Source of the DNA: Ralstonia sp. ASV6
GTDB taxonomy: Bacteria; Pseudomonadota; Gammaproteobacteria; Burkholderiales; Burkholderiaceae
Direction: 5' to 3'
DNA: 53,757 bases
Assembly: GCF_016429285.1 (NCBI RefSeq)
Contig: NZ_JAELUI010000018.1
Coordinates: 1-53,757, forward strand
The translations under genes were made by a program, and so were the position numbers. The stretch's first letter is position 1. Every line of letters begins with the position of its first letter. Of the stretch, positions 1,789 to 24,019 are shown piece by piece. The notes beneath the pieces were generated by a model. The model did no database searches. It worked only from the letters and a program-made list of their open reading frames with translations, and was not told the origin of the DNA.

Positions 1789-2538
1789 TTATAGGTCCGG
1801 CGACGCGGCCGGGCTCGATGCGGGATCGCTCTGGATCCGTTCGATATCAGTCCTTGGGCTGACCAGTGCCCCTTGCGCGCCCCCATCGACAGCCGGCGCC
1901 GCAGCTTCCGAAGCAAGCAGGTCCTGCGCGCGCTGCTCCAGATGCGCATAAAGCGGTACGCTCTTCAGCAACTCCACAGTCTTCTCTGCGAGAACGATTC
2001 GGTCGTTCCAGCGCCTTAGATCATCCGCCGAATAGTCACCGTTGATTTCAATCTTCATGTCCCGCAGCTCATGCGCATCGGACACGAGCGAGTCCAGCGA
2101 ACCTAAGCCCGCGGATTCGAACTGACACGACGTCTCTTGCTCGTAGTGACGGACAGCGCGGCCCATCTCCACGATGAAATCCAGCCCCGCGCGATCACAG
2201 TGGTGCATGAGGTTCGTCAGCAGGTCAGCCACTGCGTCTTCCTCATCGCAGCGCGTTTCCGCCTTGAACGTCGCGAGGGCCTCGCGAGCCCACGACGGGC
2301 GCTCCGAGTTCATCCCCTCAGGATCGGGAACTTCAGACAGCTGCGCCAGCATGCCCATCTCCTGCCTTGCACTTTCTACAGCTTGGCGAATCACCTCCTC
2401 GCGCTTGCCGGCCGGCAGATCCTTCCCACCCACCAGCCGGTGCACCGCCTCCACCCGGCTTGCACTGGGGTCTTCCCCCATCGCCGTGAGGGCTTGGATG
2501 ACATCTTCTTGCGTGACGTCGTTTGTCTTCTGGTTCAT
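1789..2538 (-). CDS. GEDP-domain protein, 249 aa
   Basis: ATG 2538 has AGGAAAGAG upstream. Residues about 8-60 form a near-consensus GEDP domain: TQEDVIQAL, then GEDPSASRVEAVH, then a basic segment ending IRQAVESARQE. The remainder is acidic and helical, without a recognised family, and ends SSPAASPDL, a member of the common tail class (Pro plus terminal Leu). It is 29 nt downstream of the 536-aa GEDP gene. The resemblance to its neighbours is confined to the first 60 residues and the tail, so it looks like a distinct cargo region behind a shared module. Function unknown. Confidence 0.87.
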   Translation of the reverse strand: MNQKTNDVTQEDVIQALTAMGEDPSASRVEAVHRLVGGKDLPAGKREEVIRQAVESARQEMGMLAQLSEVPDPEGMNSERPSWAREALATFKAETRCDEEDAVADLLTNLMHHCDRAGLDFIVEMGRAVRHYEQETSCQFESAGLGSLDSLVSDAHELRDMKIEINGDYSADDLRRWNDRIVLAEKTVELLKSVPLYAHLEQRAQDLLASEAAAPAVDGGAQGALVSPRTDIERIQSDPASSPAASPDL

Positions 2539-2567
2539 GTCTCTTTCCTCAGTGCAAAGGGCCCGGC

Positions 2568-4178
2568 TTACAGGTCTAATGAAGGTTCGGCCAGGTCATT
2601 GATGCTCTTCCCCTCAGAAACCTGCGAGGCCGCTTGATCCACCTTGGACATCATTTGCTGAAGCATCGGGAACAGATGGTTTCCTGCGCCAACGATAAGT
2701 GGACCCTTCAATCCCAGGGCATCGTCGATACCTTGGCGACACGCTTCCGCCTCAGCAGGCGAAGAAAAAACAAACTCCACGATATCGGCGTCCGCTGTGA
2801 TATCCGTCTCGCGTGTGAATGTCACTTTGCTGCCGACCACGTTCAGGCCATCGATCTCATCGAATTCGTCCTCAACGGCACCGATCCCTTCTTGATAGGC
2901 CCTGAGTTCGTTTTGCGTAGCGAATTTGCGCTCCAACATGTTGTCCGGACGAACGCCGTTTCTGGCTTGGGAAATGTCCTCCTGTGTCGGAAGAATAAAC
3001 ACGACGATTTCCGGCGACTCCTTCGCGCCATCGGTCAAATCATTCTCCGCGGCAAATGCCAAGCTAACCTTCTCCCAGCACCAGCCCGAAGAACCCACGC
3101 TAAACACCTCAACACGCTGACCATCGACTTCAATATGAGTCGCCTTTTCGATGGCCACTTCCTCGCCTTCGTCCTTGATGCGAACGACGTTGTTGCTTAC
3201 ATCAAACTCAACCTCGTCGGGCATCAGTTCGGCGATCATCTGCACCGAGGCCCTGGGGAAATACGGCTGCTGGAAACCGTTCCAGAGCAGTCCACACGTG
3301 TACGCAGGAATACTGACGTCACCGTCAAACCATTCCCCCGTGACGTTCACGGCCTTGAACAGCATGTCAGGCTCTTTTGGGCGCCCATTGGTGCTACCTG
3401 CATTGGCCACCTCGCCACCGTCATATAGTCGTGCCGCGTATGTCTGCCCGACAATCTTGACCGCGTTGTCAGAGAATCGGCGCACGAGATCGACGGTCGT
3501 GGACGCGTCGTCATGCTTCGAAATTCGGACGCAATGAGGTTCAAGCGCGTTGCGTCCCTCTGAGTAGTACTCCCCTTGCAGCTGGTAAACGTCTTCACCA
3601 CCAAAGCCCACGAGATACACCACAGCTTCCTTCTTGCCAACGGCGGTATCGAAGGCTCGGCTTGCGATGGCCGTGCCGTCTTTCGCCTGCCAACCGCAAG
3701 ACACCAGCGTGTCGGTCACACGAGCGATGAATTGCGCCTTCGGCTCCAACACATCGACGTCATGCTGGGGAACGGCTACGCCACTCTTCATGCGAATGGC
3801 ACCCCAGGCAAGGGCATCACCAAAGGCGGCAGCCCACGCCTGCTCCTGATTCGGATACTTCCCGTCGGCGTACACTTTCGCCTTCGGGAAAATCGTATGG
3901 CGCGCCTGCACACTCCAAACGTATTGGTCGGCTGCACTTTTAGCCAACTCGACGCTGTAACCCATCCCCGCCAACATCTGCGGCAACGTCTCGACTTGCC
4001 TACGCATTGCGTCCACCGCAAGCCGTTTCGCCTGATCGCTTGAACCGACACGAAAACCTTGCACGTTGACAAACGCGCGCACCGCCTCGACACGCCCTGC
4101 ACTGGGATCCTCGCCCAAGCTCACCAGCGCGGCGATGACTTCTTCATTGGACATCTGTGTACTCAGCGAGCCAACCAT
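2568..4178 (-). CDS. GEDP-domain protein, 536 aa
   Basis: ATG 4178 is preceded by GAGGAG at good spacing. The GEDP domain occupies residues about 8-68 (NEEVIAALVSLGEDPSAGRV, with AKRLAVDAMRRQVE at its end). The long C-terminal part is rich in predicted beta strands and acidic residues, and no catalytic motif could be recognised. A segment around residue 105 (KYPNQEQAWAAAFGDALAWG) looks like a helix-forming surface motif. The protein ends LAEPSLDL, the acidic/Pro/Leu tail class. No membrane segment. It follows the 470-aa GEDP gene with a 77-nt gap, among the larger gaps in this half of the array. Function unknown. Confidence 0.87.
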   Translation of the reverse strand: MVGSLSTQMSNEEVIAALVSLGEDPSAGRVEAVRAFVNVQGFRVGSSDQAKRLAVDAMRRQVETLPQMLAGMGYSVELAKSAADQYVWSVQARHTIFPKAKVYADGKYPNQEQAWAAAFGDALAWGAIRMKSGVAVPQHDVDVLEPKAQFIARVTDTLVSCGWQAKDGTAIASRAFDTAVGKKEAVVYLVGFGGEDVYQLQGEYYSEGRNALEPHCVRISKHDDASTTVDLVRRFSDNAVKIVGQTYAARLYDGGEVANAGSTNGRPKEPDMLFKAVNVTGEWFDGDVSIPAYTCGLLWNGFQQPYFPRASVQMIAELMPDEVEFDVSNNVVRIKDEGEEVAIEKATHIEVDGQRVEVFSVGSSGWCWEKVSLAFAAENDLTDGAKESPEIVVFILPTQEDISQARNGVRPDNMLERKFATQNELRAYQEGIGAVEDEFDEIDGLNVVGSKVTFTRETDITADADIVEFVFSSPAEAEACRQGIDDALGLKGPLIVGAGNHLFPMLQQMMSKVDQAASQVSEGKSINDLAEPSLDL

Positions 4179-4255
4179 TGCATGCTCCTCAATCCAGAAC
4201 TGGCCGCGCGTCAGCCTGCCGCGCCTAAGCCGAAATCAACCGCCAATGCGGCGTC

Positions 4256-5668
4256 TCACACGCCAACGTCCGGCGAGACGTTTTCCTCGCGGGCTCGGTT
4301 CTTGTCGTTGACGTATTCCGTGTAGGCCTCGCGATCGAGCCTCCCAAAATTGAGCCCGTGCACATCGCAGTAGTGCCGCAGATCTGCGAGCATCAGTACA
4401 ACCGCATCGCGCTCATTGGGACCGGCCACGAGGGAGGCAGACTCGTCGGCAACACGCCATGCCTTCATCGCCTGTTCGAATCGAGCAACCTGCATCTTCG
4501 GATTGAAGGACTGCTCTGCGCTGAACTCCGGCATCTGCGCCGGAATGCTGATGGCAACGTTCACGCGGGCCGGGTTGCCCAGATCGTTCAGCATTTCCTT
4601 GCCACGTGCTACCCAACGATCCGCTTTCTCGGCACCCATGTGTTCGCGATCGGCGCTGCACGGATCTGCCAGGAGCTCCGTCAGGTTCCCCAGCGCGAGT
4701 TCGACGATCTTCACGTCCTCACTCGCATCCTGTTCCAGCAGGCTGTAGTACTCCTCGCGCTGTTGCTCGGTGTACTGAAAGCATTCGTCCAAGCCAAAAT
4801 GCTCACACACGAATTCCCAGGACGGGCGACCTTCGTGCGTGGCATCCTGCTCTTCATCGTCGCGCTTGAAATCTTTGACGAACTCTCCCAGCTCCGCCGA
4901 GCCCTCTGCGTCCCCCTCGTAGTAGACACGGCCGCCCGAAACAGCCTTCACGAAGACCGTGCCTTCGAGCTCGTCGTCGGCGAACCGATACGGGGCACCG
5001 ACTTCAGGCTCGACCGGAGCAGCCGCAACTACGTTGTATCGGGCCGGGTTCGGCGTCATTTCCAAGACCCAATTGAGCACCTTCACACGCGTATCGAGTT
5101 CCACACGAGCATCGTCACCGACACGCGGAAATTGAGCTACCGATAGATCATCACTGTTGAGGGAGTCGCGGAATTTCGCGAGCTCCTTTTCAAACAGGTC
5201 CCTGCCCCAATTGATTTCTTTGGCCATCACTTCAGGCGTCAGCGGAATCGATACCTCGCCCTTCTTGACCGGCGTTGTGTTGACGTCAGGAAGCATCTCC
5301 AGAACCCAGTTCAAGCACGAGGCGCGAGTGTGCAATTCAATGGCTGCAAGCACGCCAGTACGGGGGAATTGCACACCCGAGTAGTCCTTCGAATTCAGCC
5401 CTGCATTCGCCTTGGCAAGATGTTGCTCGAAGAGAGAGCGCGCTTGCCGAAGGTCAGCCGCCATCGGCGGCAAGATCTGGTTCGGCTGCACGTGAACACG
5501 CTGCTCGTCGACGGCGCGGCGAATAGCATCCTCCCCAACCAGGTCGCCCTGCGCTGCGACCAGCGCGTGAACGGCATCAACCCGGCTGCCGCTCGGATCC
5601 TCGCCGTGAAAAATCAATGCAGCGAGTACGTCTTCTTTGCTTACACCGTTGCCATTGTTGGCTTGCAT
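4256..5668 (-). CDS. GEDP-domain protein with internal tandem duplication, 470 aa
   Basis: Two starts are possible, ATG 5680 and ATG 5668; the second is chosen because GGA lies 7 nt upstream of it. The GEDP domain (SKEDVLAALIFHGEDPSGSRVDAV) is followed by two copies of a roughly 59-residue unit, 79 residues apart. Unit 1 contains ARSLFEQHLAKA, VQFPRTG and NWVLEMLPD; unit 2 contains GRDLFEKELAKF, AQFPRVG and NWVLEMTPN. The C-terminal half is acidic and of unknown fold. The last residues are NVSPDVGV, a Pro/Val version of the shared tail. The duplication suggests a binding repeat, but no ligand can be named. Confidence 0.86.
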   Translation of the reverse strand: MQANNGNGVSKEDVLAALIFHGEDPSGSRVDAVHALVAAQGDLVGEDAIRRAVDEQRVHVQPNQILPPMAADLRQARSLFEQHLAKANAGLNSKDYSGVQFPRTGVLAAIELHTRASCLNWVLEMLPDVNTTPVKKGEVSIPLTPEVMAKEINWGRDLFEKELAKFRDSLNSDDLSVAQFPRVGDDARVELDTRVKVLNWVLEMTPNPARYNVVAAAPVEPEVGAPYRFADDELEGTVFVKAVSGGRVYYEGDAEGSAELGEFVKDFKRDDEEQDATHEGRPSWEFVCEHFGLDECFQYTEQQREEYYSLLEQDASEDVKIVELALGNLTELLADPCSADREHMGAEKADRWVARGKEMLNDLGNPARVNVAISIPAQMPEFSAEQSFNPKMQVARFEQAMKAWRVADESASLVAGPNERDAVVLMLADLRHYCDVHGLNFGRLDREAYTEYVNDKNRAREENVSPDVGV

Positions 5669-5704
5669 GATTCGATCCATTGTTGTTTGTCTGGGAAGGG
5701 TTAC

Positions 5705-6610
5705 TCACAAGCCCGGAGCGGGCGTGCTGTCGTCCGGAGTGCTTGCGCGCGCAATCGCTGCGTCAGCGTGCATGCCCGCAAAGACGTTGGTAGCGGCATC
5801 GCGGCGGCGCGCGATCCATTCGGCGCTGGGTCGCTCATTCGAAAGTCGAATTCCCTCGCCCCACTGCATCAGAGATTCACCCGTGCGGCGATCCCACACG
5901 CCGTACGCTCCAACCGTGCACGTCACGATCTGAAGGTTGGAGACAGCCACCACCGGGTATTCGCGCCCAGCATGATCAAAGAGCGGCCGGGTAGGATCCA
6001 ACGGAGCAACAGGTCGCGGATCCGCCTCGCGCAGGACCGTCATTGCTTCGTCTGGGATGCTGCTCGGCGCGGCCTTGGCAGTTCGCTCGTGCCCCGCTCG
6101 CCCTGCTTTCGCGCGGATATCGAGTACTGACCCGAAAACGGAGTCCTTCATTGCATGCTGCTGCAGCAGATCCGTTACGCAAGCGGTGAGCTCCGCCAGC
6201 TGCAGCGGCAGCTCAAAATCTCGCGGCAGTTCCTTCGGCAGATCCGTCACCTCGATAACCTTGTCCGGATAGAGACCGGTACGGGAAAGAAGCTCAACAA
6301 GCTCCTGATGACCAAACGGCGCGCCAACAGCCAAGATCAGATCATCCGTGGCATCTGTGCCACCGTCGAATCCGGCCAGCGTCAGTTCAAAAGCGAAGTC
6401 ACCGGCAGCCGCCGGAATCTGCTGGCGCACGGCATTGACCGCCAAGCGAATCACGTCCTCACGCTTGCCGACATCCAGCACCATCTCAGCCAGGTGTGCG
6501 TGCACCGCTTCCACCCGGCTGGCGCTCGGGTCTTCACCAAGCGCACTCAGCGCAATCAGAACCTCTTCTGAGGTGACGTCCGTGACGGGTTGGGGAGAAT
6601 TAGGTTTCAT
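5705..6610 (-). CDS. GEDP-domain protein, 301 aa, tail PDDSTPAPGL
   Basis: ATG 6610 is preferred; an in-frame GTG at 6619 is the alternative and would overlap nothing. The GEDP domain is close to consensus (TSEEVLIALSALGEDPSASRVEAVH) and ends in IRLAVNAVRQQI. The C-terminal domain contains a beta-rich stretch (REYPVVAVSNLQIV ... GAYGVWDRRTGE) of the kind seen in small phage or plasmid modules. The end, PDDSTPAPGL, is one of the best tail matches: acidic pair, two prolines, Gly and a terminal hydrophobic residue. Gap to the next gene upstream is 14 nt. Function unknown. Confidence 0.87.
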   Translation of the reverse strand: MKPNSPQPVTDVTSEEVLIALSALGEDPSASRVEAVHAHLAEMVLDVGKREDVIRLAVNAVRQQIPAAAGDFAFELTLAGFDGGTDATDDLILAVGAPFGHQELVELLSRTGLYPDKVIEVTDLPKELPRDFELPLQLAELTACVTDLLQQHAMKDSVFGSVLDIRAKAGRAGHERTAKAAPSSIPDEAMTVLREADPRPVAPLDPTRPLFDHAGREYPVVAVSNLQIVTCTVGAYGVWDRRTGESLMQWGEGIRLSNERPSAEWIARRRDAATNVFAGMHADAAIARASTPDDSTPAPGL

Positions 6611-6624: not shown

Positions 6625-8391
6625 TCAGAATTCAAGGCCTTGCTGCGCTTGCACAGCGAGCGCCGGCTGATCACGATTCGCGATGGCCGCGGCGGAACGC
6701 ACGCTGTGGTGCGCATCGTTTAGCAATGCGTGTTGCGCCTCCTCGCTGCAGCGCGCGAACAGCGCTTCAGCGACCTTGAAGCGCGCGCCGCGATCCAATG
6801 TCTGCAGGTCAGCGGCTTCGATCGTGTCCTGGCCCGCCAGGTGGTTGACCTCGTTGTCGCGCAGCGCGTAGAAGAACTGCACAACCGGCGCCGGCATGCC
6901 GCCGCGCGCGTGATAGCGGTCGCTCAACTCGCGGGAAGAAGGAAGCTTTTCCGGGGCGGGACGCTTTTCGGGGGATACCTGATCCTGCTCGGTGAGGATC
7001 TCGGCCAGCGCGCGCGCCTGCGAAACCGGCGTGGCCGCGAATTTGTCCGTCAGCACCTTGCCTGCCACGGCTTGGCGCAGTTCGGCCATCAAAGTGGGGT
7101 TCTCGTCCGCCCATTGACGCCAGAGCCCTGCGTACGCTTTCCAGATCTCGTCTTGCGTCATCGGCTGCAGCGGGCTCTTGCCCTTGCCCAGGCGCCAATG
7201 GTTGCCCTGCACCCGGTACCCTTTCACATCGAGCTGGTACGCCTCCTCAATGGTTCGGCCGTCGGCAAGGCGCGCATTAAGGGCGCTGAAGCGCTTGTCA
7301 CCAGCACTGGATATCTCATAGCCTTCGACGCCGGCAAAGGGGTAGCGCGACCAGGCAAATGCCGAGCGGCGTTCCAGCTGCAGCGCCTGCAGCTGCTTTC
7401 GGACATCGACGCTGTAGACGTGCAAGTCATTCGCATCGACGACGTGCGACTCGCGTCCTTCGTCCAGGAAACCATTGCACGACTGCACGGCCTGGAGAAG
7501 CGAATCGGTCTTGTGCGAGCAACCTTCATCGCACCACACGGAAAACTGCCCGCTCACCTCCGTTGGCCGGACTGCATCGGCAGCTTCAAGCTGAGCACGT
7601 GCCTCACCGCCGTCGGCCAACGACGGCTTGAGATAATTCGAATCGTTCGGCACTGGCGACCATGTCACACCATGGATTTCTACAGTCTTGTCGTAAAGCA
7701 GCTCCCTGAGCGGCACCTCAAACCGGATCTGCTTGCCGTGGTTACTGGTGTCGCCCGGATGAACCGCGACGCCACCAAAAAGGGTTGCCTTCGCGTCGTG
7801 GATGACCACCACATCCGCATCAGCGACCGCGAACGGGTAGCCCTTTAGGCGCTCAACCAGTCGCACCGGATAAACGCCAGGCAGCACCGTATAGAACGCA
7901 TCCCATGCCGGCACAGGATTGCTTTCCCGGTATTCGGTCGGGGAAAGAACCTTGATGAATGCGGCGCCGCAAGCGTCGATGTGATTGCGCGCCGCGGAGA
8001 CGACCTGCTGAATGGCCTCGGCACGCTCGCCAGACGGCAGATCGCGACCGGCAAGCTGGAGGCTCAGAGCTTCCACCCGCGTGGCATCCGGATCCTCGCC
8101 AAGAGTCGCCAGCGCCTCAATCACTTCTTCAGGCGTTGGTTGAATCGTTGCATCCAACTTGCCTGGGTGTTGCCCGTTTGTGTTGCCGAGTTCGACAACC
8201 GGCACGTATGCCTTGCCGTTCCACGCCTGCAAGTCCTCCATCGTGGCCCCCTGCCTGCTGCGATTAGCTTGGAGCAACGCATCAGCATGATCAGTGGCGC
8301 CGATCATGATCCAGCCATACGCCGACCGGCAGCGGTAGGACAAAAGCCCATGAGCGGCCAGCGGCTTGTTGGTGAGAGAGATGTCTTTCAT
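6625..8391 (-). CDS. GEDP-domain protein with an extra N-terminal domain, 588 aa
   Basis: ATG 8391 is chosen because GGGGGC precedes it and because MKDISLTNK begins a plausible domain; ATG 8433, just after the upstream stop, is the alternative. It is unusual in having about 75 residues ahead of the GEDP domain. That part (SAYGWIMIGATDHADAL ... LQAWNGKAYVPV) looks like a small alpha/beta module that I associate with mobile-element proteins but cannot name. The GEDP domain then reads TPEEVIEALATLGEDPDATRVEAL. The rest is unrecognised, with one segment (GCSHKTDSLLQAVQSCNGF) holding two Cys. It ends AVQAQQGLEF, with a terminal Phe but no proline. Confidence 0.85.
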   Translation of the reverse strand: MKDISLTNKPLAAHGLLSYRCRSAYGWIMIGATDHADALLQANRSRQGATMEDLQAWNGKAYVPVVELGNTNGQHPGKLDATIQPTPEEVIEALATLGEDPDATRVEALSLQLAGRDLPSGERAEAIQQVVSAARNHIDACGAAFIKVLSPTEYRESNPVPAWDAFYTVLPGVYPVRLVERLKGYPFAVADADVVVIHDAKATLFGGVAVHPGDTSNHGKQIRFEVPLRELLYDKTVEIHGVTWSPVPNDSNYLKPSLADGGEARAQLEAADAVRPTEVSGQFSVWCDEGCSHKTDSLLQAVQSCNGFLDEGRESHVVDANDLHVYSVDVRKQLQALQLERRSAFAWSRYPFAGVEGYEISSAGDKRFSALNARLADGRTIEEAYQLDVKGYRVQGNHWRLGKGKSPLQPMTQDEIWKAYAGLWRQWADENPTLMAELRQAVAGKVLTDKFAATPVSQARALAEILTEQDQVSPEKRPAPEKLPSSRELSDRYHARGGMPAPVVQFFYALRDNEVNHLAGQDTIEAADLQTLDRGARFKVAEALFARCSEEAQHALLNDAHHSVRSAAAIANRDQPALAVQAQQGLEF

Positions 8392-8437: not shown

Positions 8438-10585
8438 CTAAGCCAGCCCCATCGCAGCAGCTTCGACTTCCGCCGCAGGGGCGCTGTCCGGCTCAGACAC
8501 GGCAGGCGCGATACCGATGAGGGCGGCGATCGTCTTCTCGCCCTCACTGATCGCATACGCGATGTGGTTCTGACCGGCCAGAACGACCGGCGCACCACTT
8601 GAGGTGTCAATCACAACCTCGAAATGCGGGAGCGTACGAGCAAGCTCATAGCGAAGATCGCCGAGCCCGTTGGCCGCGTGCTTTGCGTATTCCTCGGTCA
8701 GCAGGTCAGTCGCCTGCTTCTTCGTCATCATCCCTTTGATTGGGTACTCGCCATCGCGCTGCCACACGCGCGCTTCGGTATCCACTTCATCAGTGCGATA
8801 GCGCCGCACGTCTTCGAGCAGCGCGGCCTGGTCCTCTTCCAGCAGTGAGTACGGGGTCTGGCCACGGGCCGACTCATGTGTGAGATCTGCACCGAAATCT
8901 TCCAGCACCAGCAGGCAATTTGCGAAGCCGAGCGCGGCCGCATAGTGGGCCGCCGTTTGCCCTTCCCTGTCGGTCGCGTTCGGATCAGCGCCCGCTTCGA
9001 GCAGCGCTGAGACCACCGACGCCCGCCCGCCGCGGGCCGCTTCCATGAGGGCATTCATGCCGTTGCCGACATGCAGTTGATTGATCTCAATAGGCCTGGC
9101 AGCCAGCTTGGCGACGGCGCTTGCCGGCTTACCCGTCCACACGGCGTCATACAGCTTGTTCTCCGCGGTGCTCACACGCAGCAGCGAAGTTTGCTGAACA
9201 TCGCGATAGACGTCGTGCTTCTTGACAGTCGCATACAGGTGGACGCGATCGCCCACGTTGGCGACGTCACCGCCGGTGCTGAACCACACCAAAATGTTGC
9301 CCGCATCGTCACGGAACCGGTATAGCGTCTTGTCGCCATACTGGTCTCCCGGAATAACGGTGCGACCAATCACGACAACGGGGTGGTGCTCGATCTTTTC
9401 GTCGACCGTGCCGACGAACTGACTATCACGATCGCTGTCGCGCTCTGCAGCTTTGCGCTGCTGGTAGTCATACGAAGGCACAGCCGCAGCAACGATGCCG
9501 ATATGGCGATCTGCAACGTCATCAGCAGAACCCAGCACTGATAGGTTATGCATGAACGTCGAGCTGGCCCGAAGCGCGTCCACTTCCTCAGAACGAAGCC
9601 AGGCAATAATCTTTTTCGCCTTCTCAACATCTTCCGGACGGACAACCTCAGGCTTGATGATCGGGCGCTTAGCGAAGTGCTCGCGAACGATGTCGCTCGT
9701 CGACATGACCATCTGCTGATCCGCTTTCTCCTTCGAGCGGTAGCCGCTCACCCGCACTTCCGCACAGGCGGCTTGGAGCACACGCTCAATGGGAAGCTTG
9801 GCGTCCTCACCGTTCGCATATGCCGGCTCACGGAGCTCGTCGATCAGGTCGTGCATCTCGACCAGCAGCTGCAGCATTGCCGTTTGGTGATGCGGGTCGT
9901 CACCATTGAAAAAGTCAGTCAGACATGACTGCCCGACCTGCTTGTATTCGCCGCTGGCGACCTCTTGCAACACGAAGGTGTGGACCCGTTGCCGGTTCAG
10001 CTGACAGTGATCGCAGTTAGGTTCGCAGTGCATGTATGACTGCGGGAAATCGAGACCACGAACCAACGGCGCATCCGCACCGGGTATGTGTTCGAGCTTT
10101 CCGACGATCCTATGGCCGGCAATGACTGGCTTCTGCCCAGTCACTTTGACGTCGCATGCCTGAAGCTCCACGCGTTCGCCGCGAGTCTCGCCGTCGTAGA
10201 CGTGGACCTTCTCGAAGACTGCCAGCTTCGGCTCCGAAGCCTCCAGCGTAATCATCGGCATGCCCAGCTTGGCCGCACGCTTGTTCAGCCGCGCGATCAC
10301 CTCACGCAGGCGCCCCATGTGCTCCAGTGGAATGGTGAAGATTCGCGAGAATTCGCCGGCAGGCACCTCTACCGTGTTCGACTCGGACATTGCGTCGAGC
10401 CGTTCGCGCGCTTGCGTCACGGCGAGACGCACACCGGAGGCGCGATCGCCTTCTGCCATGGGGTCGCCGGTGATGAGGCCTCGGACGGCCTCCACGCGGT
10501 TGACATCGGGATCCTCGCCGAGGTCCACCAGGACCTCAAGCACCTCATCAGCTGTCAGTACATCTCCTCTTGTCACCTGGCTCAT
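8438..10585 (-). CDS. GEDP-domain protein with Cys cluster, OB-like region and ankyrin repeats, 715 aa
   Basis: ATG 10585. Residues 10-62 are the GEDP domain (TADEVLEVLVDLGEDPDVNRVEAV). Residues 187-225 hold HCEPNCDHCQLNRQR followed by YKQVGQSCLTDFF, a probable metal-binding module known from phage and plasmid proteins of unknown function. Residues about 385-475 (QFVGTVDEKIEHH ... YGDKTLYRF ... TVKKHDVYRDVQQTSL) resemble a nucleic-acid-binding beta-barrel module that often follows the Cys cluster. Residues 507-590 are two to three ankyrin repeats (NALMEAARGG, LLEAGADPNATDREGQTAAHYAA). The tail is weak (VEAAAMGLA). It is the most elaborate fusion in the array and suggests nucleic-acid plus protein binding; this is inference. 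Confidence 0.88.
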   Translation of the reverse strand: MSQVTRGDVLTADEVLEVLVDLGEDPDVNRVEAVRGLITGDPMAEGDRASGVRLAVTQARERLDAMSESNTVEVPAGEFSRIFTIPLEHMGRLREVIARLNKRAAKLGMPMITLEASEPKLAVFEKVHVYDGETRGERVELQACDVKVTGQKPVIAGHRIVGKLEHIPGADAPLVRGLDFPQSYMHCEPNCDHCQLNRQRVHTFVLQEVASGEYKQVGQSCLTDFFNGDDPHHQTAMLQLLVEMHDLIDELREPAYANGEDAKLPIERVLQAACAEVRVSGYRSKEKADQQMVMSTSDIVREHFAKRPIIKPEVVRPEDVEKAKKIIAWLRSEEVDALRASSTFMHNLSVLGSADDVADRHIGIVAAAVPSYDYQQRKAAERDSDRDSQFVGTVDEKIEHHPVVVIGRTVIPGDQYGDKTLYRFRDDAGNILVWFSTGGDVANVGDRVHLYATVKKHDVYRDVQQTSLLRVSTAENKLYDAVWTGKPASAVAKLAARPIEINQLHVGNGMNALMEAARGGRASVVSALLEAGADPNATDREGQTAAHYAAALGFANCLLVLEDFGADLTHESARGQTPYSLLEEDQAALLEDVRRYRTDEVDTEARVWQRDGEYPIKGMMTKKQATDLLTEEYAKHAANGLGDLRYELARTLPHFEVVIDTSSGAPVVLAGQNHIAYAISEGEKTIAALIGIAPAVSEPDSAPAAEVEAAAMGLA

Positions 10586-14902: not shown

Positions 14903-15351
14903 CTATGGAGACGGCGATTCATCGACATCACTCTTTGTGGCACGCTGCGATGCCAATTTATTGGCCATTTCGACCGGTTCGAAGCTCGCTTCGAGCGGCG
15001 ATGTCCAACACGTCAACCCTCGTTCTCTCGCGGTCCGAAACTGCTGACTCGTCCCGACACAACCGTTGAAGTAGCCACCGTCATACTGGTCGTACGAGAT
15101 TCCAATCTCTCTGAGAAGACCCGCATGCTCCGGCGTCCCCTCAATCACGCCTTCCCACTTTATGGTGGCGACCATGGGCACGAAGTCGACGCGCCCGTGG
15201 CCTGACGATGGCACTCGCTCCGAGATCGAGAGCTTGACCTTGATGTGGTCCCTCGATCCTAGGCAGGCATATCCGGATCCTCACCCGCGGCGACCAGCGC
15301 CAGCATGACTTCCTCTTCGCTGATCGGTTTGATCGGTGACTGATAGCTCAT
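14903..15351 (-). pseudogene. Decayed GEDP-domain gene (truncated domain, frameshift)
   Basis: From ATG 15351 the reading frame gives MSYQSPIKPISEEEVMLALV then AAGEDPDMPA and a stop at 15261..15259, so it begins exactly like a GEDP gene and breaks after GEDPD. The following DNA in a different frame encodes a beta-rich protein (VKLSISERVPSSGHGR, VDFVPMVATIKWEGVIEG) to the stop at 14903, ending DVDESPSP. That frame stays open upstream of its first usable start, a GTG at 15214, so the N-terminal module has probably been lost by deletion. A 103-aa protein could still be made from the GTG. The C-terminal domain may be a short carrier-like module. Confidence 0.75.
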
Positions 15352-15380
15352 TGTCTTTAGGCTCCTCGAAGACAAGTCGC

Positions 15381-17346: not shown

Positions 17347-18768
17347 TCACTGACCAAGCCCAGCACTGTTGTCCAGCGACCGGTCAAGGGTGGATTGATA
17401 CTTTGCTGCATTGGCCCGCGTCATCGTCACGGCATCCGGGAAGGCACGCTTCAGCTCGAAGAACGTCACGATGGCCGTTTCGCTCAGACCCCGGTCCGGC
17501 AGATTGCCCACGATGCCGTCGACCGGACACACCACCACATCCTTTGGATCCAAATGCTGGTCGATCAGGCTCACAACCCAATCCCACTCAGCCTCACGCT
17601 TATCGCCGAACGCGCCCATGAACTTCGCGAACGCACGTTCGCCGCGAAGGCCATCCGCATCCAGACGCTCCAAGCACGCGATCGAGCGCCAGTCACCATC
17701 GCGCCGATGCAATTCCGCGGGTAACTCTTCCGCGAACGTTTCGAGCTGCTCTTTGGCGGACTCGTCCAACCGCACCATGAACTGGCCGGAATCCTCGCGA
17801 TACCCCGAAATCTGAATGCCAAAGGACTCCAGCATGCTCATCTCCCAGCGCGGCGCCGTCACCGTGCCGTAATACGCGACCTTGCCGCTCGAACGCCACC
17901 CGGTGGGCGGCAAAATGCGTTCGCAACGCTGAACGTCGCTGAGCACCTCGATCACACGTGCGATCAAAGGCGATGAACGCTCAACCGCTTCGCGGTAGGC
18001 CGCATTGCGCATGTTTGCCGCGATGAACCCTGCGCAGTACTGCCGACGGTCGTCGTTCACGAGCACTGCATAGTCTTCCAAGTCAGCCTCTGCCATGCGG
18101 CGTGCCAGACCAGGCTGCAGGTCTTCAATGCTGCGCCCGTTCCTTGTGAGCTGCGCATGCCGTGAAATGATCGCCAGATCGGCTTGCGCTTCCGGGTTTT
18201 CAGCGATCAGCCGAGCAAGCTGCGCGCTTTTCAGGTCTTCCTTCTCCGCCACCAGCCGATCATGAGTGGCGTTGCACTCACGGATATCCGCGAGCACGTC
18301 GGGTGCGGCTTCTTCAAGCGCTTCCAGGTATCGGCGTGATCGGACTGACTCCATGCTGATGGCGAGATTGAATCGGGCTTCCGCGCCCCTCACTACCCGG
18401 AAGTCCGCTGCATCAAGCGCAGCCCACTCGCGGGCGATGCGCGTGGAGACCACCTCGACATCCTGCCGGCGCAGGATCTCAAGCCGAGGATTCGGCCCCG
18501 CACCCACCTGTGCATTCAACTCGGGCAGCTTCGCGTGGAAATACGCATCACTCCAGAGCGCGGCGCGCTTCTCGATCGCAGCGACCGCTGCCTCCTGGCG
18601 CTTGCTGGAACCATCTCGTGCCTGACGAGTGACCATTTCCTGCAAGGCCTGAGCGGCCTCATTACCATCAATGCACTCGCGAACCTGGTCAAGTGGGACG
18701 TCCAGATTCCCACCACCGACAATCATGCGGAGAGTGGGCTTCTTTTCGGTGGTGTGCGTCGTTTCCAT
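17347..18768 (-). CDS. Unknown 473-aa array protein without GEDP domain
   Basis: ATG 18768 follows GGAGTCCCC, a strong ribosome site, so the in-frame start 11 codons upstream is rejected. The N-terminal third is long-helical and charged (AAQALQEMVTRQARDG, AAVAAIEKRAALW), and the central region looks like a coiled-coil or helical bundle (LARLIAENPEAQADLAII). The C-terminal part is alpha/beta (DVVVCPVDGIVGNLPD). No signature was recognised. The tail RSLDNSAGLGQ is only loosely like the others. It is likely a cytoplasmic scaffold or binding protein by composition, which is a guess. Confidence 0.86.
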   Translation of the reverse strand: METTHTTEKKPTLRMIVGGGNLDVPLDQVRECIDGNEAAQALQEMVTRQARDGSSKRQEAAVAAIEKRAALWSDAYFHAKLPELNAQVGAGPNPRLEILRRQDVEVVSTRIAREWAALDAADFRVVRGAEARFNLAISMESVRSRRYLEALEEAAPDVLADIRECNATHDRLVAEKEDLKSAQLARLIAENPEAQADLAIISRHAQLTRNGRSIEDLQPGLARRMAEADLEDYAVLVNDDRRQYCAGFIAANMRNAAYREAVERSSPLIARVIEVLSDVQRCERILPPTGWRSSGKVAYYGTVTAPRWEMSMLESFGIQISGYREDSGQFMVRLDESAKEQLETFAEELPAELHRRDGDWRSIACLERLDADGLRGERAFAKFMGAFGDKREAEWDWVVSLIDQHLDPKDVVVCPVDGIVGNLPDRGLSETAIVTFFELKRAFPDAVTMTRANAAKYQSTLDRSLDNSAGLGQ

Positions 18769-18806: not shown

Positions 18807-19445
18807 TTAGCCCAACTCGGGTCCAGATTCCGCAACAACCTCAGGCGCACTGACACCGTGCGTGGCAAGGATCTGCGGAACCATTGGCGCAACCCAAATG
18901 GCGTCGCGCATCGCTGAGACGCGGCCTTTCAGCGCTTTTTCCAGAAAGTCCAATTCGTCCTTGTCTTGCGAGGTCCGCATACGCGAAACCATGTCGGAGG
19001 TGTCAGCCTGCATTTCGGACACCGACATCCAGTCACCGCGATCAATTTCGAAAACCATCTCGGCTGCGGCCTCGTAGACACGCACTCGGCTGTCGGTCAC
19101 ACCCAACACCACGCTGGGGGACTTCCAACTGCTCGGATCCGGACGGTAGAAACCAACGGCACCCGGCACAGGCACTGAAATGCCCATCGCCTCGTCTTCC
19201 TTGACAGCGTGATGAGCGCCCGCGTCCACCGCGCGGCGCCGCTCCGCTGACTCAGCGGCCTTTCGTTCCAGCAGTGCATTCCGGGCGGCTTCCACTTCGC
19301 GAATGACAGCGTCGCCTCGACCGTCCTCAGGTAGCACAACGCCTTGTCTGAGCGCGCCATGAACGGCTTCAGTACGCGACGCTGTCGCCTCTTCCCCAAG
19401 CTGAGCCAGCGCCAGCAACACTTCTTCTTTCGAAATCGGATTCAT
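18807..19445 (-). CDS. Divergent GEDP-domain protein, 212 aa
   Basis: ATG 19445 (MNPISKEEV) puts the shared module at the very N-terminus, which decides against longer starts. The domain is divergent: KEEVLLALAQLGEEATASRTEAVHGAL, with GEEA in place of GEDP and T for V, but the spacing and the trailing VIREVEAARNALL agree. The remainder has a beta segment (PSVVLGVTDSRVRVYEAA) and a helical C-terminus (LDFLEKALKGRVSAMRD). It ends VVAESGPELG, acidic with Pro but terminal Gly. It is 28 nt after the 313-aa GEDP gene. Function unknown. Confidence 0.85.
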   Translation of the reverse strand: MNPISKEEVLLALAQLGEEATASRTEAVHGALRQGVVLPEDGRGDAVIREVEAARNALLERKAAESAERRRAVDAGAHHAVKEDEAMGISVPVPGAVGFYRPDPSSWKSPSVVLGVTDSRVRVYEAAAEMVFEIDRGDWMSVSEMQADTSDMVSRMRTSQDKDELDFLEKALKGRVSAMRDAIWVAPMVPQILATHGVSAPEVVAESGPELG

Positions 19446-19473
19446 GTTCGACTCACCAACCTGTCCGTTGCGG

Positions 19474-20415
19474 TTACATAGCTGGCATCGGGGCATCGTC
19501 CGCATCCCCAATGCTCAGTTGCCGACCGTTCTCGCGCACGCGGAGCGTCAGGTCACCACGCTGAATCGTGAACTGTTCAGAAGAGTTCCGAGCCTTGAAC
19601 ACGAATGTTTCAGGCGACATCGGCGTACCGGCGTTGTAATGCGACAGGGAGACCGGGTGCCAGATTTGCAACGTGGGTCTGCCGGGTTGAATGCTCGACA
19701 CCTCATATTCAACGCCGTAGCGGACGGGCAGATTGGCTTCTTCACAGGGTGCGCCCGCAACGTCTGCGAGATCTGCGAAATGGGCTGGCAGTTTGCCGGT
19801 GCCGTATGGGTCAGCTTCGAAGTTGTCGAAATCGAACACTTCCACATCCACGCCCGGGTCGTGGAAGGTTTCCGCCACGCCGCCTCGAACCATCACGAGT
19901 ACACGCGGGTGCGACCGAGCAACATCCATTTCGGCCGAAGGCACCGCAGTCGGCACGACGAGTACTGCGCCTTCGTCACGCACACCAACCAAGTCGAAGA
20001 GATCGTTGTAGCTGTCGCCCGTCGGGGCGATCTCCCGATCATCGAGGCCCTTGTTGAAGGCTTCGACGCGATTCCGAACCGCGCACAGTTGCGCCAGGGC
20101 TTCCTTGCACGCCGCCACATTGAACGCGCCATCGTGTGATGTCGCCAACTGCAAGGCAGCAATGGCGTTGGCTACCGACGGCTGGGACGGAAGCGGCGCG
20201 GCACGACCGGCCTCCGTCTCAGACACGATCTCCCTTCGAACCTGCTCCACGGCGGCCTTGACCACAGCCGATCGGTAGTCGCTCGGCCCAAAAAATGGGT
20301 CCAGCCGCTTGCGCACGGCATCGACCCGGCTGACGGTCGGGTCTTCCCCCGACGCCACCAGCGCCTCCATGATGTCTTCCCGGGTTACCCCAGCGATGTA
20401 CGTGCGTTGAAACAT
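19474..20415 (-). CDS. GEDP-domain protein, 313 aa, tail DADDAPMPAM
   Basis: ATG 20415 with GAGG 6-10 nt upstream is chosen over an ATG 14 codons earlier. The GEDP domain occupies residues about 10-66 (TREDIMEALVASGEDPTVSRVDAVRKRL ... VKAAVEQVRREI). The C-terminal region contains strands with hydrophobic alternation (GAVLVVPTAVPSAEMDV, PRVLVMVRGG) and an acidic patch (DVEVFDFDNFEADP). It ends GDADDAPMPAM, a strong tail. It is the first gene downstream of the terminator at 20.6 kb, so it probably has its own promoter in the 190-nt AT-rich gap upstream. Confidence 0.87.
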   Translation of the reverse strand: MFQRTYIAGVTREDIMEALVASGEDPTVSRVDAVRKRLDPFFGPSDYRSAVVKAAVEQVRREIVSETEAGRAAPLPSQPSVANAIAALQLATSHDGAFNVAACKEALAQLCAVRNRVEAFNKGLDDREIAPTGDSYNDLFDLVGVRDEGAVLVVPTAVPSAEMDVARSHPRVLVMVRGGVAETFHDPGVDVEVFDFDNFEADPYGTGKLPAHFADLADVAGAPCEEANLPVRYGVEYEVSSIQPGRPTLQIWHPVSLSHYNAGTPMSPETFVFKARNSSEQFTIQRGDLTLRVRENGRQLSIGDADDAPMPAM

Positions 20416-20636: not shown

Positions 20637-20673
20637 AATGCTCGCAGCTAAGAGGACCGACCCGAATCGCCCG

Positions 20674-21351
20674 TCAGGGACGTGGGCCTGGGTCATCCAC
20701 CCCATTGACCATGGTCTGCCAATCATTCAACAGAGCCAAGCACCGATCATTGGAAATCAATCGATGGAGGAAAGCTTGCTTCAGGGCATCAAGCGCGGCT
20801 TGCTGCAGCGAGCTCAGCCCACGTTCGCCTACCCCGGGAACAGCCGCGGAAGGAGCAGGCGCCAGAACAGGCGGCTCTTTGGATCCCAAAACCAACCAGT
20901 CAATTGAAGCCCCCACCAACTTTGCAAGAGGCCCAACCTGCTCCAGGCTAGGCACCGTCAGCTCTTGCTCCCACTGGGAAACAGCCCCTTGGGTGATGCC
21001 GAGTCGATCGGCGATCGCCTTCTGAGAAAGCTTTGCCTGCTTACGCGCGTAGGCAATACGCTGACCGACAGTGTCAAGCCCCACCGCGTCGGCCGCATCA
21101 CCGCGCGCCACGCCGGCAACAGTGGAACTGGGTGCCGACACTGCCCCCAGCGCATCCAGCTCGCATCCTGCCCGCTCGATCGCGTCGCGAATCCCCGCAG
21201 CTCGATCACCCTCCGACAATGGATTCGATGCGACCCTGGCATGAACAGCGTCGACCCGGTTCGCAGTGGGGTCCTCGCCCATGGCAATCAGCGCTGCCAT
21301 GACCTCATCGCGAGTCACTTCGGAACCAGGCGAAGTGGCAACTACTCCCAT
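20674..21351 (-). CDS. GEDP domain fused to XRE-type DNA-binding domain, 225 aa
   Basis: ATG 21351 has GAAGGA at ideal spacing; the TTG five codons earlier is rejected. Residues about 12-68 are the GEDP domain (TRDEVMAALIAMGEDPTANRVDAVHARV). Residues about 90-155 are a classic XRE/Cro helix-turn-helix (RIAYARKQAKLSQKAIADRL then GITQGAVSQWEQELTVPSLEQV, with ASIDWLVLG after it), as in phage-type repressors. The C-terminus is helical and ends NGVDDPGPRP. It is directly followed by a strong terminator. The only array member with an identifiable DNA-binding domain, it is the natural candidate for the array's regulator; targets are unknown. Confidence 0.9.
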   Translation of the reverse strand: MGVVATSPGSEVTRDEVMAALIAMGEDPTANRVDAVHARVASNPLSEGDRAAGIRDAIERAGCELDALGAVSAPSSTVAGVARGDAADAVGLDTVGQRIAYARKQAKLSQKAIADRLGITQGAVSQWEQELTVPSLEQVGPLAKLVGASIDWLVLGSKEPPVLAPAPSAAVPGVGERGLSSLQQAALDALKQAFLHRLISNDRCLALLNDWQTMVNGVDDPGPRP

Positions 21352-21380
21352 GGCTTCGTCCTTCAATTACACGTTGACGA

Positions 21381-22520
21381 TCACATTCCCGGCGCCATGC
21401 CCTCGTCGGCCGCGGGCGCGGCGGCGGTATTTTCGCGATCGCCTTGTGCGAGCTCGACTGCCCGGGTATTGATTCGACCGATCAGCTCCTTCCAATAGGC
21501 CGCGGAATCGCTGTCGATGTCCTTCGCCGCCATATTCCACTCGGCCCACGCCAGCTGGGCGGCCTTACGGCGCTCCAGGTCGACCGCAGCACCAGTTCCT
21601 TGCCACGTGGCAATGCCTGCGTCGGTCTTCAGGTACTGATGGAGCTCCACGCGGAAGTCCTTAGGGAAGCTAGCCAGTTCAGCCAAGGCTGCCGCCTTCT
21701 GCGCCGGACTAATCTCGACGAAAACACCTTCGCGCTCTGCGTCATATGCCGCCACACGGAAGCCGTAGCCCTCCAGCATGCTGGCCTGGTCGGCACTGCA
21801 GCCCACAAAACCAACATGGAAATCAGCGTCCGGCTGAACCGCGAAGTCAATCTGCTCGGCCAGTTCCCGCTCCGCGTACTCGGTCCCGATGAGGCCCCAA
21901 ATTGCCTCACCCTCCCCGAGTCGCTCCCCATCGCGATCGAAGTGATACACACAGACGCCATACACATTGCCATTGGCCCAGTCGGAAAACTCTTCCAGGC
22001 TGCTGTTCGCCGACTTGATGAACTCCTGTGCCGCCGCCTCATGCGCCCGAGCACGCAACACCACCGGGGCTTCGCCGGTGGCCAGCGTAGCTTGAATCGC
22101 ATCACGCCGTTTCGCAAACTCTTCCTGCAGATCCTCGCACGGCACGAATACGCCCGACGGGGCAACATCCCACTGCTGGTCCACATAGGAGACGGTCCCG
22201 GACACCGAGTAGCTCACCAGACCGTGCTCGTACTTGTCCACGACAAACGCGAGCTTTCCCTCCTCCAGCACGGAGTTGAGGAAGGCATCCCGCTCGCCCT
22301 GCGACCCGAACTCCTTGAAGTCCCCGAACCCATCGTCGTTTGTGCGCGGATCCAAATGCCGGGAATCATTGTCGGGCACCAACACGCCCACCACGAAACC
22401 GCTGCCAACACGGACCACCTTCACCTCGATCGCTTCCGCGCAAAACGAAGGCACCTCCACGTCCTTGCCGTTCGGCAAGTCCACGGTTGCAACGGTGCGA
22501 CGGTTGATTTTGGCTCCCAT
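21381..22520 (-). CDS. Unknown 379-aa array protein without GEDP domain, tail ADEGMAPGM
   Basis: ATG 22520 has AGGA at 9-nt spacing; ATG 22529 would have no spacing and is the alternative. The N-terminus starts directly with a beta-rich region (VDLPNGKDVEVPSF ... VVGVLVPDNDSRHL), with no GEDP domain. Further segments (ANGNVYGVCVYHFDRDGERLG, FHVGFVGCSADQASML) suggest an alpha/beta fold. No family is recognised. It ends PAADEGMAPGM, a clear tail. It lies between two GEDP genes, 74 nt after the first gene of the operon. Confidence 0.86.
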   Translation of the reverse strand: MGAKINRRTVATVDLPNGKDVEVPSFCAEAIEVKVVRVGSGFVVGVLVPDNDSRHLDPRTNDDGFGDFKEFGSQGERDAFLNSVLEEGKLAFVVDKYEHGLVSYSVSGTVSYVDQQWDVAPSGVFVPCEDLQEEFAKRRDAIQATLATGEAPVVLRARAHEAAAQEFIKSANSSLEEFSDWANGNVYGVCVYHFDRDGERLGEGEAIWGLIGTEYAERELAEQIDFAVQPDADFHVGFVGCSADQASMLEGYGFRVAAYDAEREGVFVEISPAQKAAALAELASFPKDFRVELHQYLKTDAGIATWQGTGAAVDLERRKAAQLAWAEWNMAAKDIDSDSAAYWKELIGRINTRAVELAQGDRENTAAAPAADEGMAPGM

Positions 22521-22594
22521 GATGCTCATTCCTTATGTTGTCTGCCTTGCACGGCCGAATGGCCAGCATTATCTCACTCTGAAACCACGCCCAT

Positions 22595-24019
22595 TCACAT
22601 GCCAGGCAACGGGCCGTCTTCTTGTGCTTTCGTCTTCGCTCGGGCCGGATCGGGGTACCAATTGGTCGCATCGTCCACAGCGACCTGCAGATCGCTGTGC
22701 GTCTTCTGCTCAATCCAGCTGTTGCGCTCTGGGTGGTAGATTTCGACCTCATACCAAGTCGCATCAGACGTCACACGCTTGCTCACACGCATCGCTTCCG
22801 GGCGGAAATCGGTCACCGGCAAGAACAGCATCAGCTTGGATTCGACCGGCACGCGGTAGCGGTCCGCGTCGTCGAACCTCGCCGCGAAGTCAGGTACCAT
22901 CGCTGCGTCCGCCGACTGCTCGGCTCGCTGAGCGACCACTGTGCTGCCCGTCAACTCTTCCAGACTGACCGGATCCGTGACCGTCAACACCTCTTCACGA
23001 TCTTCTTCGAACTTGGCATCCAGCACGCCTTCCGCTTCCGCCTGACTCAGCTTCTGCTCAGACCAGGCCAGGTATCCGGTGGTACCGTACTCGTGCTCGT
23101 GGATGACCATGAAGGGCTTCAGACCATCCAAGGCGTGAGCCTGATCCAGAAGCTCACGCGCACGTGTTCGCAACGAGGCCGCTTCCATCAAGCGCGCCTT
23201 GGTCAGAGATGCCTGCGCCCATTGGGGAAGCTCAGAGGTCCGCTCCAGCCCGCACTGCTCCGGCTCGTCTAGGGCCTCTCCGTTGGCAGTCAGGATCGAA
23301 TCCTGCACATCCGCCACCTCGGATGCAGTGGCCTCCACCCAGCCACGCACCGAGTGCTGCAGCTGCAATGCGCTCACCTTGTGCTCAACGATGTCGAACA
23401 CCAGACGGCACGACCGATCGCCTTCACGCGCGCTGAAGATGTGGCTCCAGCCGCCCACGATGTATCGGGCGTGGTCTTCAGCGGAGCCAACGGGCGATCC
23501 CCCTGATGCCAGGCCAGCGCCGGCACTCAACGCAGTGACCGACTGACGCGAGGCCCAGGCAAAGACGGCGTTGTAGTTCCCGGTGACCGTCTCCGGCACC
23601 ACCATATCGCGCATGGGGCCGGAAATACTGCCCATGGCAATCCACCGTTTCAGATCGAAGTCTCCAGTCGAGTGCTCGATGTCTCCCAACACGATGTGTC
23701 CACTGACGTCCCGCCGGGCGCCGCTTCGAAGCACCCAGCACGCCTCTCCGCTGTCATCAAATAGCACAACCCGCCCTTTCACCGGCCATGTCATGTTGCC
23801 GCTGTCGATCTGTTGACGCGCATGGACCACGGCCGCACGAACGGCCTGGTCTCGACCGAACCCCTCAATTTCCTCGTCGTAGTGATCGGCGACTGCGCCC
23901 CAGTCAATGAACGCTCGCACGCCCTCGACTCGGCTCGCGCTGGGATCCTCGCCCAATGCGACCAGCGTCAACATCACTTCCTCGGCTGACCCCTGCTCTG
24001 CCTGATGTACCTTGCCCAT
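22595..24019 (-). CDS. GEDP-domain protein, first gene of the array, 474 aa, tail QEDGPLPGM
   Basis: ATG 24019 is preceded by GGGAG. The GEDP domain spans residues about 10-80 with an insertion: EEVMLTLVALGEDPSASRVEGVRAF is followed by an acidic loop (DHYDEEIEGFGRD) before VRAAVVHARQQI. The rest is beta-rich with many Trp and acidic residues; a segment (GCRLVFDIVEHKVSALQLQ, read with neighbours) could be a barrel strand. It ends AQEDGPLPGM, a strong tail. As the first cistron after the 24.1-kb promoter it begins the array. Function unknown. Confidence 0.87.
   Translation of the reverse strand: MGKVHQAEQGSAEEVMLTLVALGEDPSASRVEGVRAFIDWGAVADHYDEEIEGFGRDQAVRAAVVHARQQIDSGNMTWPVKGRVVLFDDSGEACWVLRSGARRDVSGHIVLGDIEHSTGDFDLKRWIAMGSISGPMRDMVVPETVTGNYNAVFAWASRQSVTALSAGAGLASGGSPVGSAEDHARYIVGGWSHIFSAREGDRSCRLVFDIVEHKVSALQLQHSVRGWVEATASEVADVQDSILTANGEALDEPEQCGLERTSELPQWAQASLTKARLMEAASLRTRARELLDQAHALDGLKPFMVIHEHEYGTTGYLAWSEQKLSQAEAEGVLDAKFEEDREEVLTVTDPVSLEELTGSTVVAQRAEQSADAAMVPDFAARFDDADRYRVPVESKLMLFLPVTDFRPEAMRVSKRVTSDATWYEVEIYHPERNSWIEQKTHSDLQVAVDDATNWYPDPARAKTKAQEDGPLPGM

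Follow-up and report, generated by a model that had tools for sequence, protein, structure and literature searches.

A gene array with a shared N-terminal module and a shared C-terminal tail on a type IVB plasmid segment of Ralstonia sp. ASV6: candidate protein cargo of a conjugation machine

Protein cargo of conjugation machines is a known kind, and here we compare the described cases with a gene array on contig NZ_JAELUI010000018.1 of Ralstonia sp. ASV6, the 53,757 nucleotides of which were analyzed as a whole (hereafter, the window). The array comprises 18 consecutive genes and one broken gene on the minus strand (positions 1031–24019), and twelve of these genes (1789–24019) encode a module of ∼52 residues, called GEDP for its signature, for which our library scans found no family. 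Moreover, a C-terminal tail, absent from the initial annotation of this stretch, recurs in array proteins with and without the module. From sequence comparisons, we favor, with somewhat better than even confidence, the reading that the array encodes cargo proteins of a type IVB conjugative plasmid, in which the tail would be the address and the module an adaptor.

Among the described systems, Sog of the IncI1 plasmids R64 and ColIb-P9 is a plasmid protein moved to recipients by a type IVB-related machine, and ColIb-P9 is described as transferring several hundred copies of SogL independently of the plasmid (PMC8406263); Sog differs from the present set in being a single large primase, with neither a GEDP module nor an array. 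The F plasmid pED208 conjutome is likewise a set of plasmid-encoded proteins delivered during mating, an F-type machine thus moving many plasmid proteins. However, that system is F-type, its signals are described as C-terminal or internal, with positively charged ends generally favoring transfer, and the extracts of both sources mention no common module or end motif (PMC8406263, PMC11288057). The Legionella Dot/Icm effectors with C-terminal signals, which include an acidic Glu-rich class read by DotM and a class dependent on IcmSW, resemble the present case in DotM, a DotL-type ATPase, IcmW, and an acidic C-terminal region, whereas their acidic signals are longer and Glu-rich, their targets are eukaryotic, and the excerpts of the reports mention no shared N-terminal module (PMC5802825, PMC3441705). 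In Pseudomonas putida IsoF, the kib killing system, also type IVB, delivers protein into bacteria, which indicates that such a system is able to act on bacteria, but it comprises a single effector-immunity pair, which lies on a genomic island, with no mention of an array or module in the excerpted text (PMC9519443). Finally, protein delivery is reported for the type IVB Icm/Dot system of Xanthomonas euvesicatoria, where the source names, in its excerpted part, XVIPCD proteins and a relaxase shared with a VirB/VirD4 system as substrates (PMC10432156). The X. euvesicatoria plasmid searched and scored here, which is from another strain, has 3 tailed genes of 173 and lacks the GEDP module.

The GEDP module

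The initial annotation had assigned the module to twelve named genes and had noted a thirteenth, broken copy, and both observations held. Plasmid pBVIE03 of Burkholderia vietnamiensis G4 (CP000619.1) has eight copies of its own, and a profile hidden Markov model (HMM) built solely from these recovered all twelve window modules with E values of 6e-18 to 1.9e-9, as opposed to a best value of 0.0026 against shuffled window proteins (20 rounds), and the broken copy is frameshifted, with its module N-terminus and its tail-bearing remainder in different frames (Table 1). The consensus reads xxxEEVxxALxxLGEDPxASRVEAVxxx...AxRxAVxxAR, in which Leu12, Gly16, Glu17, and Arg23 (alignment positions) are invariant across the window modules. 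The gene starts of the initial annotation were inspected, and several lack a clear Shine-Dalgarno sequence; taken as given, they put the beginning of the module at residue 4–12 in 11 of the twelve proteins. Its claimed placement at or near the gene start therefore stands except in the gene starting at 8391, where it begins at residue 84, and the claimed signature stands except in the gene starting at 19445, which reads GEEA.

The view that the module belongs to no known family agrees with our library scans. In Pfam, which was run on all twelve proteins, a single match overlapped a module (Pyridox_ox_2 in the gene at 19474–20415; E 0.062, below cut-off), and we take it as chance. The module was also unmatched in NCBIfam (3 of the 12 proteins), PADLOC (7 of the 12), and PHROGs (7 of the 12), and no KfrA_N or other plasmid DNA-binding N-terminal family was found on any of the twelve modules at E up to 1, a range in which the HMMER filters drop most matches above 0.1. 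The structure prediction that the initial annotation had asked for yielded a model of three helices with a mean pLDDT (model confidence) of 87.1, to which we assign no fold family. The module is acidic, with a mean net charge of −3.8 (range −7 to 1, n = 30).

These properties bear on the alternative that the proteins remain in the donor, with the module acting as a scaffold or as a DNA-binding or partition-type domain and the tail as a degradation tag or docking motif. Such a role, which we consider distinctly unlikely, would suit the cytoplasmic character of the recognizable bodies (an Xre-type helix-turn-helix protein, phage-type proteins, and a HipA-like kinase), and hydrophobic C-termini can act as protease or PDZ-type ligands. 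However, a DNA-binding module is disfavored by the acidic charge and by the absence of profile matches, and the donor-resident role as a whole is disfavored by the enrichment of the tail on type IVB plasmids and by its absence from 22 proteins picked by hand from the transfer machine and the surrounding block on this element, all of which score below 0 with the tail matrix described below.

The module has a narrow known distribution. Further copies lie in the same genome on contigs C68 (five genes), C182 (three), and C581 (one); outside it, we found the eight copies on pBVIE03 and one in Trinickia terrae, where the module occupies residues 330–380 of 413, toward the C-terminal end of the protein (gene 122497–123738 on a 372-kb contig). 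The first third of this Trinickia protein looks hydrophobic by eye. We surveyed 398 genomes of the family, to which Trinickia and Cupriavidus also belong, scoring at most 16 candidates per genome, so that weak copies could escape; three genomes gave a match at E 0.001 or better, namely the Ralstonia genome itself, Trinickia, and one weak match that failed to repeat. When a 30-row module alignment was compared with twelve records or genomes, only pBVIE03 and Trinickia were positive. Two weak matches were dropped, G156 (E 9.3e-4) as not repeated with the 30-row alignment and G001 (E 9.8e-4) as having no match in the 398-genome survey. Scans of larger collections with a narrow pattern of 9–10 residues matched four stretches in genome contigs and two in viral contigs, none of which was confirmed, a result that is no proof of absence. 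Among phages, only two records of one Arthrobacter phage matched (E 0.1), which we take as chance; the stretch in question, 31 residues of a portal/MuF fusion in phage MargaretKali (NC_070769.1, 4013–4105), is 55% module-like. Searches of the open-licence literature, which could not be aimed at the motif itself, turned up neither the module nor the tail. The module appears to be a lineage-specific, negatively charged, small helical domain and, we infer, most likely an adaptor.

The C-terminal tail

The tail comprises the last ∼8 residues, which are acidic or polar at positions −8 to −6, mostly Pro at −5 and Ser at −4, Pro or Leu at −3, Glu, Asp, or Gly at −2, and Leu or Met at the end. A matrix trained on the twelve window tails was tried on the 18 module proteins of other replicons, held out from training, with 593 other genes as background; the area under the curve (AUC) was 0.82 (p 1.3e-6), and 12 of the 18 came in the top tenth of the background. 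When the scored stretch was moved inward by 8, 16, 24, or 40 residues, the AUC was 0.47–0.51.

Composition (acidic, proline-rich ends) or translational coupling could in principle produce such a likeness, and the ends of module proteins are indeed more acidic and less basic than those of other genes. We nevertheless consider an artefact of this kind improbable, as (i) order shuffles of equal composition score far lower, none of 5000 trials reaching the observed mean of the held-out tails, (ii) nothing is found 8–40 residues further in, and (iii) the stop-to-start gaps in the array span 14–486 bases, so that the last codons lie outside the next ribosome-binding site. Coupling or composition alone is disfavored by these three observations.

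The motif generalizes, in part, beyond module proteins. With a matrix from all 30 module proteins, which was used for all window scores, the six module-less array genes score between 3.7 and 13.6, five of them at 4 or more (Table 1). At a score of 6 or more, we counted 18 tailed genes among 580 on five type IVB plasmids without the module (7/135, 4/119, 3/111, 1/42, and 3/173 per plasmid), where order shuffles predict 3.4 and four inner positions gave 1 to 4 genes; these are five of the eight type IVB plasmids collected besides pBVIE03 and R64, the other three being records W05, W08, and W09. For comparison, a chromosomal sample was drawn as eighteen stretches of 20 kb from large contigs of Cupriavidus and Trinickia, which were judged chromosomal from their size; in it, 0 of 304 genes reached 6 (expectation 0.6; Fisher p 4.6e-4 relative to the plasmids) and 2 of 304 reached 4. 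Some of the 18 tails may depend on one another, as at least one tailed gene of X. citri has a tailed relative in X. euvesicatoria. On pBVIE03, 8 of 222 module-less genes scored 6 or more (expectation 1.75), and in the window 4 of 32 did so (expectation 0.37). In the 20 kb around IcmB, a slightly different matrix gave 4 or more to none of the genes in X. citri (0/43) or B. flabilis (0/45), the tails of these plasmids lying elsewhere. Of 95 complete coding sequences scored in R64 (record positions 30000–120826), the matrix trained on module proteins ranks first the C-terminus of a 1255-residue LPD7 protein (score 5.9), which we presume from its size and place to be SogL, followed by TrbA (4.0).

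Comparisons of relatives indicated that module and tail are separable. A Cupriavidus pampae protein (183166–185094), which is 53.7% identical over 620 residues to residues 79–692 of the ankyrin-repeat protein encoded at 8438–10585, lacks the module and has a tail scoring 7.5, whereas its window counterpart scores 0.8; with such a relative tailed but module-less, the module is not simply the signal. Further, the 8438–10585 protein is matched in 343 phage records, and the twelve matches listed start at query residue 74 or later, none of them extending into the module. A pBVIE03 protein without the module has a domain in common with two module proteins. The tail also varies independently of the body, as the HipA-like window protein is tailed and its 56%-identical C. 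pampae relative is not. Conversely, the window protein encoded at 41840–47095 is untailed while its X. citri and Pseudomonas syringae relatives are tailed, and that at 30855–34190 is untailed while its P. syringae, B. flabilis, and X. citri relatives are tailed. Among relatives of the 47258–48715 protein, tails score 7.3 in pBVIE03, 9.0 in B. flabilis, and 8.1 in X. citri, with none in C. pampae.

These observations bear on the proposal of the initial annotation that the module is a recruitment or export signal beside conjugation genes. The setting was borne out, the segment being one of a type IVB plasmid family, but the tail is the better candidate for the signal. That the module is itself the secretion signal or a chaperone-binding site, with the tail secondary or unrelated, seems to us unlikely. 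In its favor, conservation is far higher in the module than in the tail, and the module mostly sits near the N-terminus; an N-terminal Dot/Icm signal has been reported (PMC10100965), and in Legionella IcmSW binds the effector SidG away from its C-terminal signal (PMC3441705). Set against this, the array and other type IVB plasmids hold tailed genes without the module, the C. pampae relative lacks it, and in Trinickia it lies toward the C-terminal end.

According to the initial annotation, the bodies behind the module are unlike one another. Among the twelve this is correct, no pair matching at E 1e-3 or better once the module is masked; between replicons it is not, and several bodies prove to be mosaics of shared domains. 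The proteins encoded at 5705–6610 and 6625–8391 have C-terminal domains in common with pBVIE03, in the first case with a module gene (57% and 46% over 112 residues, respectively), and that at 22595–24019 has an internal domain in common with a module-less pBVIE03 protein, which in turn has that domain in common with a module protein. Overall, 30 of 58 proteins compared (30 module proteins and 28 chosen) share a domain outside the module; judged by sequence, module proteins and their relatives are a mosaic family. An internal domain of ∼55 residues, YYGxI...E...L.SFGL..GPYD, was seen in at least eight otherwise different plasmid proteins, including those at 17347–18768 and 27608–28801 in the window and at L027:2765–4321, as well as products of genes on pBVIE03, C182, and a Cupriavidus contig.

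The type IVB plasmid setting and the cargo reading

The window encodes a homolog of IcmW, an adaptor of type IVB secretion systems (Table 1). Contig C664 of the same genome encodes IcmB and IcmK, 72% and 69% identical to their pBVIE03 counterparts, together with IcmL and a TrbC/DotL-type coupling ATPase of 1132 residues (below the NCBIfam cut-off), and contig C182, which also holds module genes, encodes DotM/IcmP (E 6e-52, below cut-off). Homologs of IcmW, IcmB, IcmK, IcmL, the coupling ATPase, and DotM are all encoded by pBVIE03, and the window shows synteny with this plasmid in its second half. These six proteins and their pBVIE03 homologs place the array in the type IVB (Dot/Icm-like, MPF_I) plasmid family. 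By analogy with pBVIE03, the window contig (C137), C664, C182, and C68 probably form one plasmid, a proposal that covers these four contigs and leaves C581 aside; a type IVB system with its coupling complex would then be encoded on the same element as the array. IcmB identity is 71–72% to pBVIE03, 59–60% to Trinickia, 52% to C. pampae, and about 41% to Xanthomonas, Pseudomonas, and Bordetella plasmids. IcmB relatives at E 1e-30 or better occur in 3713 plasmid records, and nothing was found for IcmB in viral contigs. No relaxase was recognized among ten further proteins.

We propose that the coupling complex (DotL/DotM/IcmW) would recognize the tail, reading an acidic stretch, a small or proline residue, Glu, Asp, or Gly, and a hydrophobic or proline end. 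This fits the finding that the acidic C-termini of one class of effectors are bound by DotM, the specificity of which, as suggested in the same work, may differ in other species (PMC5802825). The cargo would be threaded into recipient bacteria with the DNA or independently, like Sog of the IncI1 plasmid, and in the recipient it may help plasmid establishment or act on the recipient. Recombination may have placed the GEDP module ahead of many unrelated bodies, and the module would most likely be a protein-binding adaptor, either for a chaperone such as IcmW or for a common donor or recipient hub, and not the primary signal. Translocation into recipient bacteria is inferred, whereas the end-anchored motif is shared and generalizes in part; its role as a signal is a prediction.

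The polymorphic-toxin comparison made in the initial annotation finds no support in Pfam, where none of the twelve proteins showed a toxin domain, although most bodies match nothing at all. The recognizable bodies are the ankyrin phage-type protein, the Xre-type regulator, the phrog_3963 and phrog_12911 proteins, and the tail-only HipA-like kinase, and one pBVIE03 body is weakly acetyltransferase-like. As these bodies look like intracellular bacterial factors, recipient bacteria are a likelier target than eukaryotes. Delivery to eukaryotic cells, in the manner of Legionella effectors, could be read from the ankyrin repeats of the 8438–10585 protein and of a neighbor on C68, with their weak matches to NCBIfam Dot/Icm Ank effector models. 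We regard it as very improbable: these matches are confined to the repeat stretch and fall far below the curated cut-offs, the bodies resemble phage and plasmid proteins, and like tails occur on other conjugative-plasmid proteins and on the presumed R64 Sog.

Several results weigh against the cargo reading. Six of the 18 held-out module tails fall in the ordinary range, only 16 of the 30 module proteins score 4 or more on leave-one-out, and two window module genes score just 0.8 and 0.1. There is no tail excess in the nearest transfer-gene relatives after pBVIE03 (Trinickia 0/320, Cupriavidus 1/219), nor among module-less genes of contigs C68, C182, C581, and C664 of the same genome (0/116 at 6 or more). 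Tails are patchy within orthologous families, being present at 4 or more (window sequences counted) in 2 of 8 methyltransferase-helicase, 3 of 8 CLCA_X/LPD1, 4 of 5 47258–48715, and 0 of 7 topoisomerase family members. NikB, which is the relaxase of R64 and likewise a substrate, has a score of −2.0, or 3.3 and fifth of 95 if shifted by one residue. IcmW exceeded its cut-off in 9 of the 12 records or genomes searched, 7 of which lack the module; it is therefore ruled out as a marker of module plasmids and, being general on type IVB plasmids, is unspecific for protein cargo. In addition, the 30 module proteins themselves had served to train the matrix behind the window scores, the 18 plasmid tails, and the R64 ranking, and genes were called by a simple script suited to G+C-rich DNA, which called only 42 genes in Yersinia ruckeri.

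A wider form of the cargo reading, which we put forward tentatively and at somewhat less than even confidence, is that type IVB plasmids across Proteobacteria use a common C-terminal label to send batteries of proteins, in addition to DNA and relaxase, into recipients, and that one Burkholderiaceae lineage added the GEDP adaptor, capturing phage and plasmid proteins as a modular payload of twenty or more. If the cargo reading is true, (i) the end motif would be a sequence rule predicting type IVB-delivered proteins, (ii) many IncI-like plasmids would become searchable for delivered proteins, (iii) the unannotated array would supply candidates for proteins of establishment or anti-defence, and (iv) GEDP would represent a new domain, separable from the rest of the protein, that serves in the coupling or adaptor step.

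Features of the window and neighboring observations

Table 1. Array genes and neighboring features of the window, with module positions and tail scores.
Feature	Position	Strand	Length (aa)	Module	Tail score	Remarks
Tail-only gene	1031..1756	−			8.1	No module
Module gene	1789..2538	−	249	2362-2517	9.3	Residues 60-136 match phage family phrog_3963
Module gene	2568..4178	−	536	3999-4157	8.1	
Module gene	4256..5668	−	470	5498-5644	4.3	
Module gene	5705..6610	−	301	6422-6577	11.6	
Module gene	6625..8391	−	588	7984-8142	5.1	Module from residue 84
Module gene	8438..10585	−	715	10403-10558	0.8 (weak)	Ankyrin repeats; phage-type body (phrog_2319)
Module gene	10898..12148	−	416	11972-12121	9.5	
Tail-only gene	12181..13458	−			6.3	HipA-like kinase (PF07804)
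Module gene	13812..14894	−	360	14715-14870	9.7	phrog_12911 match
Broken thirteenth copy	14903..15444	−				Frameshifted; module N-terminus in open reading frame 15259-15444 (61 aa), C-terminal remainder with tail in a different frame, 14903-15214
Tail-only gene	15381..16532	−			13.6	
Tail-only gene	16557..17321	−			4.8	
Tail-only gene	17347..18768	−			3.7	∼55-aa internal domain common to several plasmid proteins
Module gene, GEEA variant	18807..19445	−	212	19278-19436	0.1 (weak)	
Module gene	19474..20415	−	313	20233-20388	12.9	
Module gene	20674..21351	−	225	21169-21321	9.9	Xre-type helix-turn-helix (PF01381)
Tail-only gene	21381..22520	−			10.0	
Module gene	22595..24019	−	474	23813-23992	10.4	
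CLCA_X / LPD1 protein	30855..34190	−				Conserved on type IVB plasmids
Block syntenic with pBVIE03 beside IcmW	34593..40907	−				M23 peptidase gene, three mutual paralogs, others
IcmW homolog	40904..41425	−				PF23130, E 9.8e-19; NCBIfam IcmW below its cut-off
N6-methyltransferase and helicase protein	41840..47095	−	1751			63% identical in pBVIE03
Protein	47258..48715	−	485		4.1	
Topoisomerase-family gene	49919-51463					Tail comparison family

The methyltransferase-helicase protein, which by its architecture we take to be DarB-like, is a candidate anti-restriction protein; it has relatives on all five module-less type IVB plasmids compared, on pBVIE03, and in Cupriavidus. The three mutual paralogs in the block beside IcmW (37090–38226, 38223–39347, and 39344–40186) are found on pBVIE03 as well and, at least partly, on the Trinickia and Cupriavidus elements. 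On pBVIE03, the gene for the coupling ATPase (IcmO; CP000619.1, 54321–58883) is split into two open reading frames by an integrase-type gene (56942–57997), while its homolog on C664 is a single reading frame of 1132 residues. Lastly, a PcfJ-like protein (PF14284) is encoded on contig C182 (region L060:8663–10447), ∼5 kb from the DotM gene.

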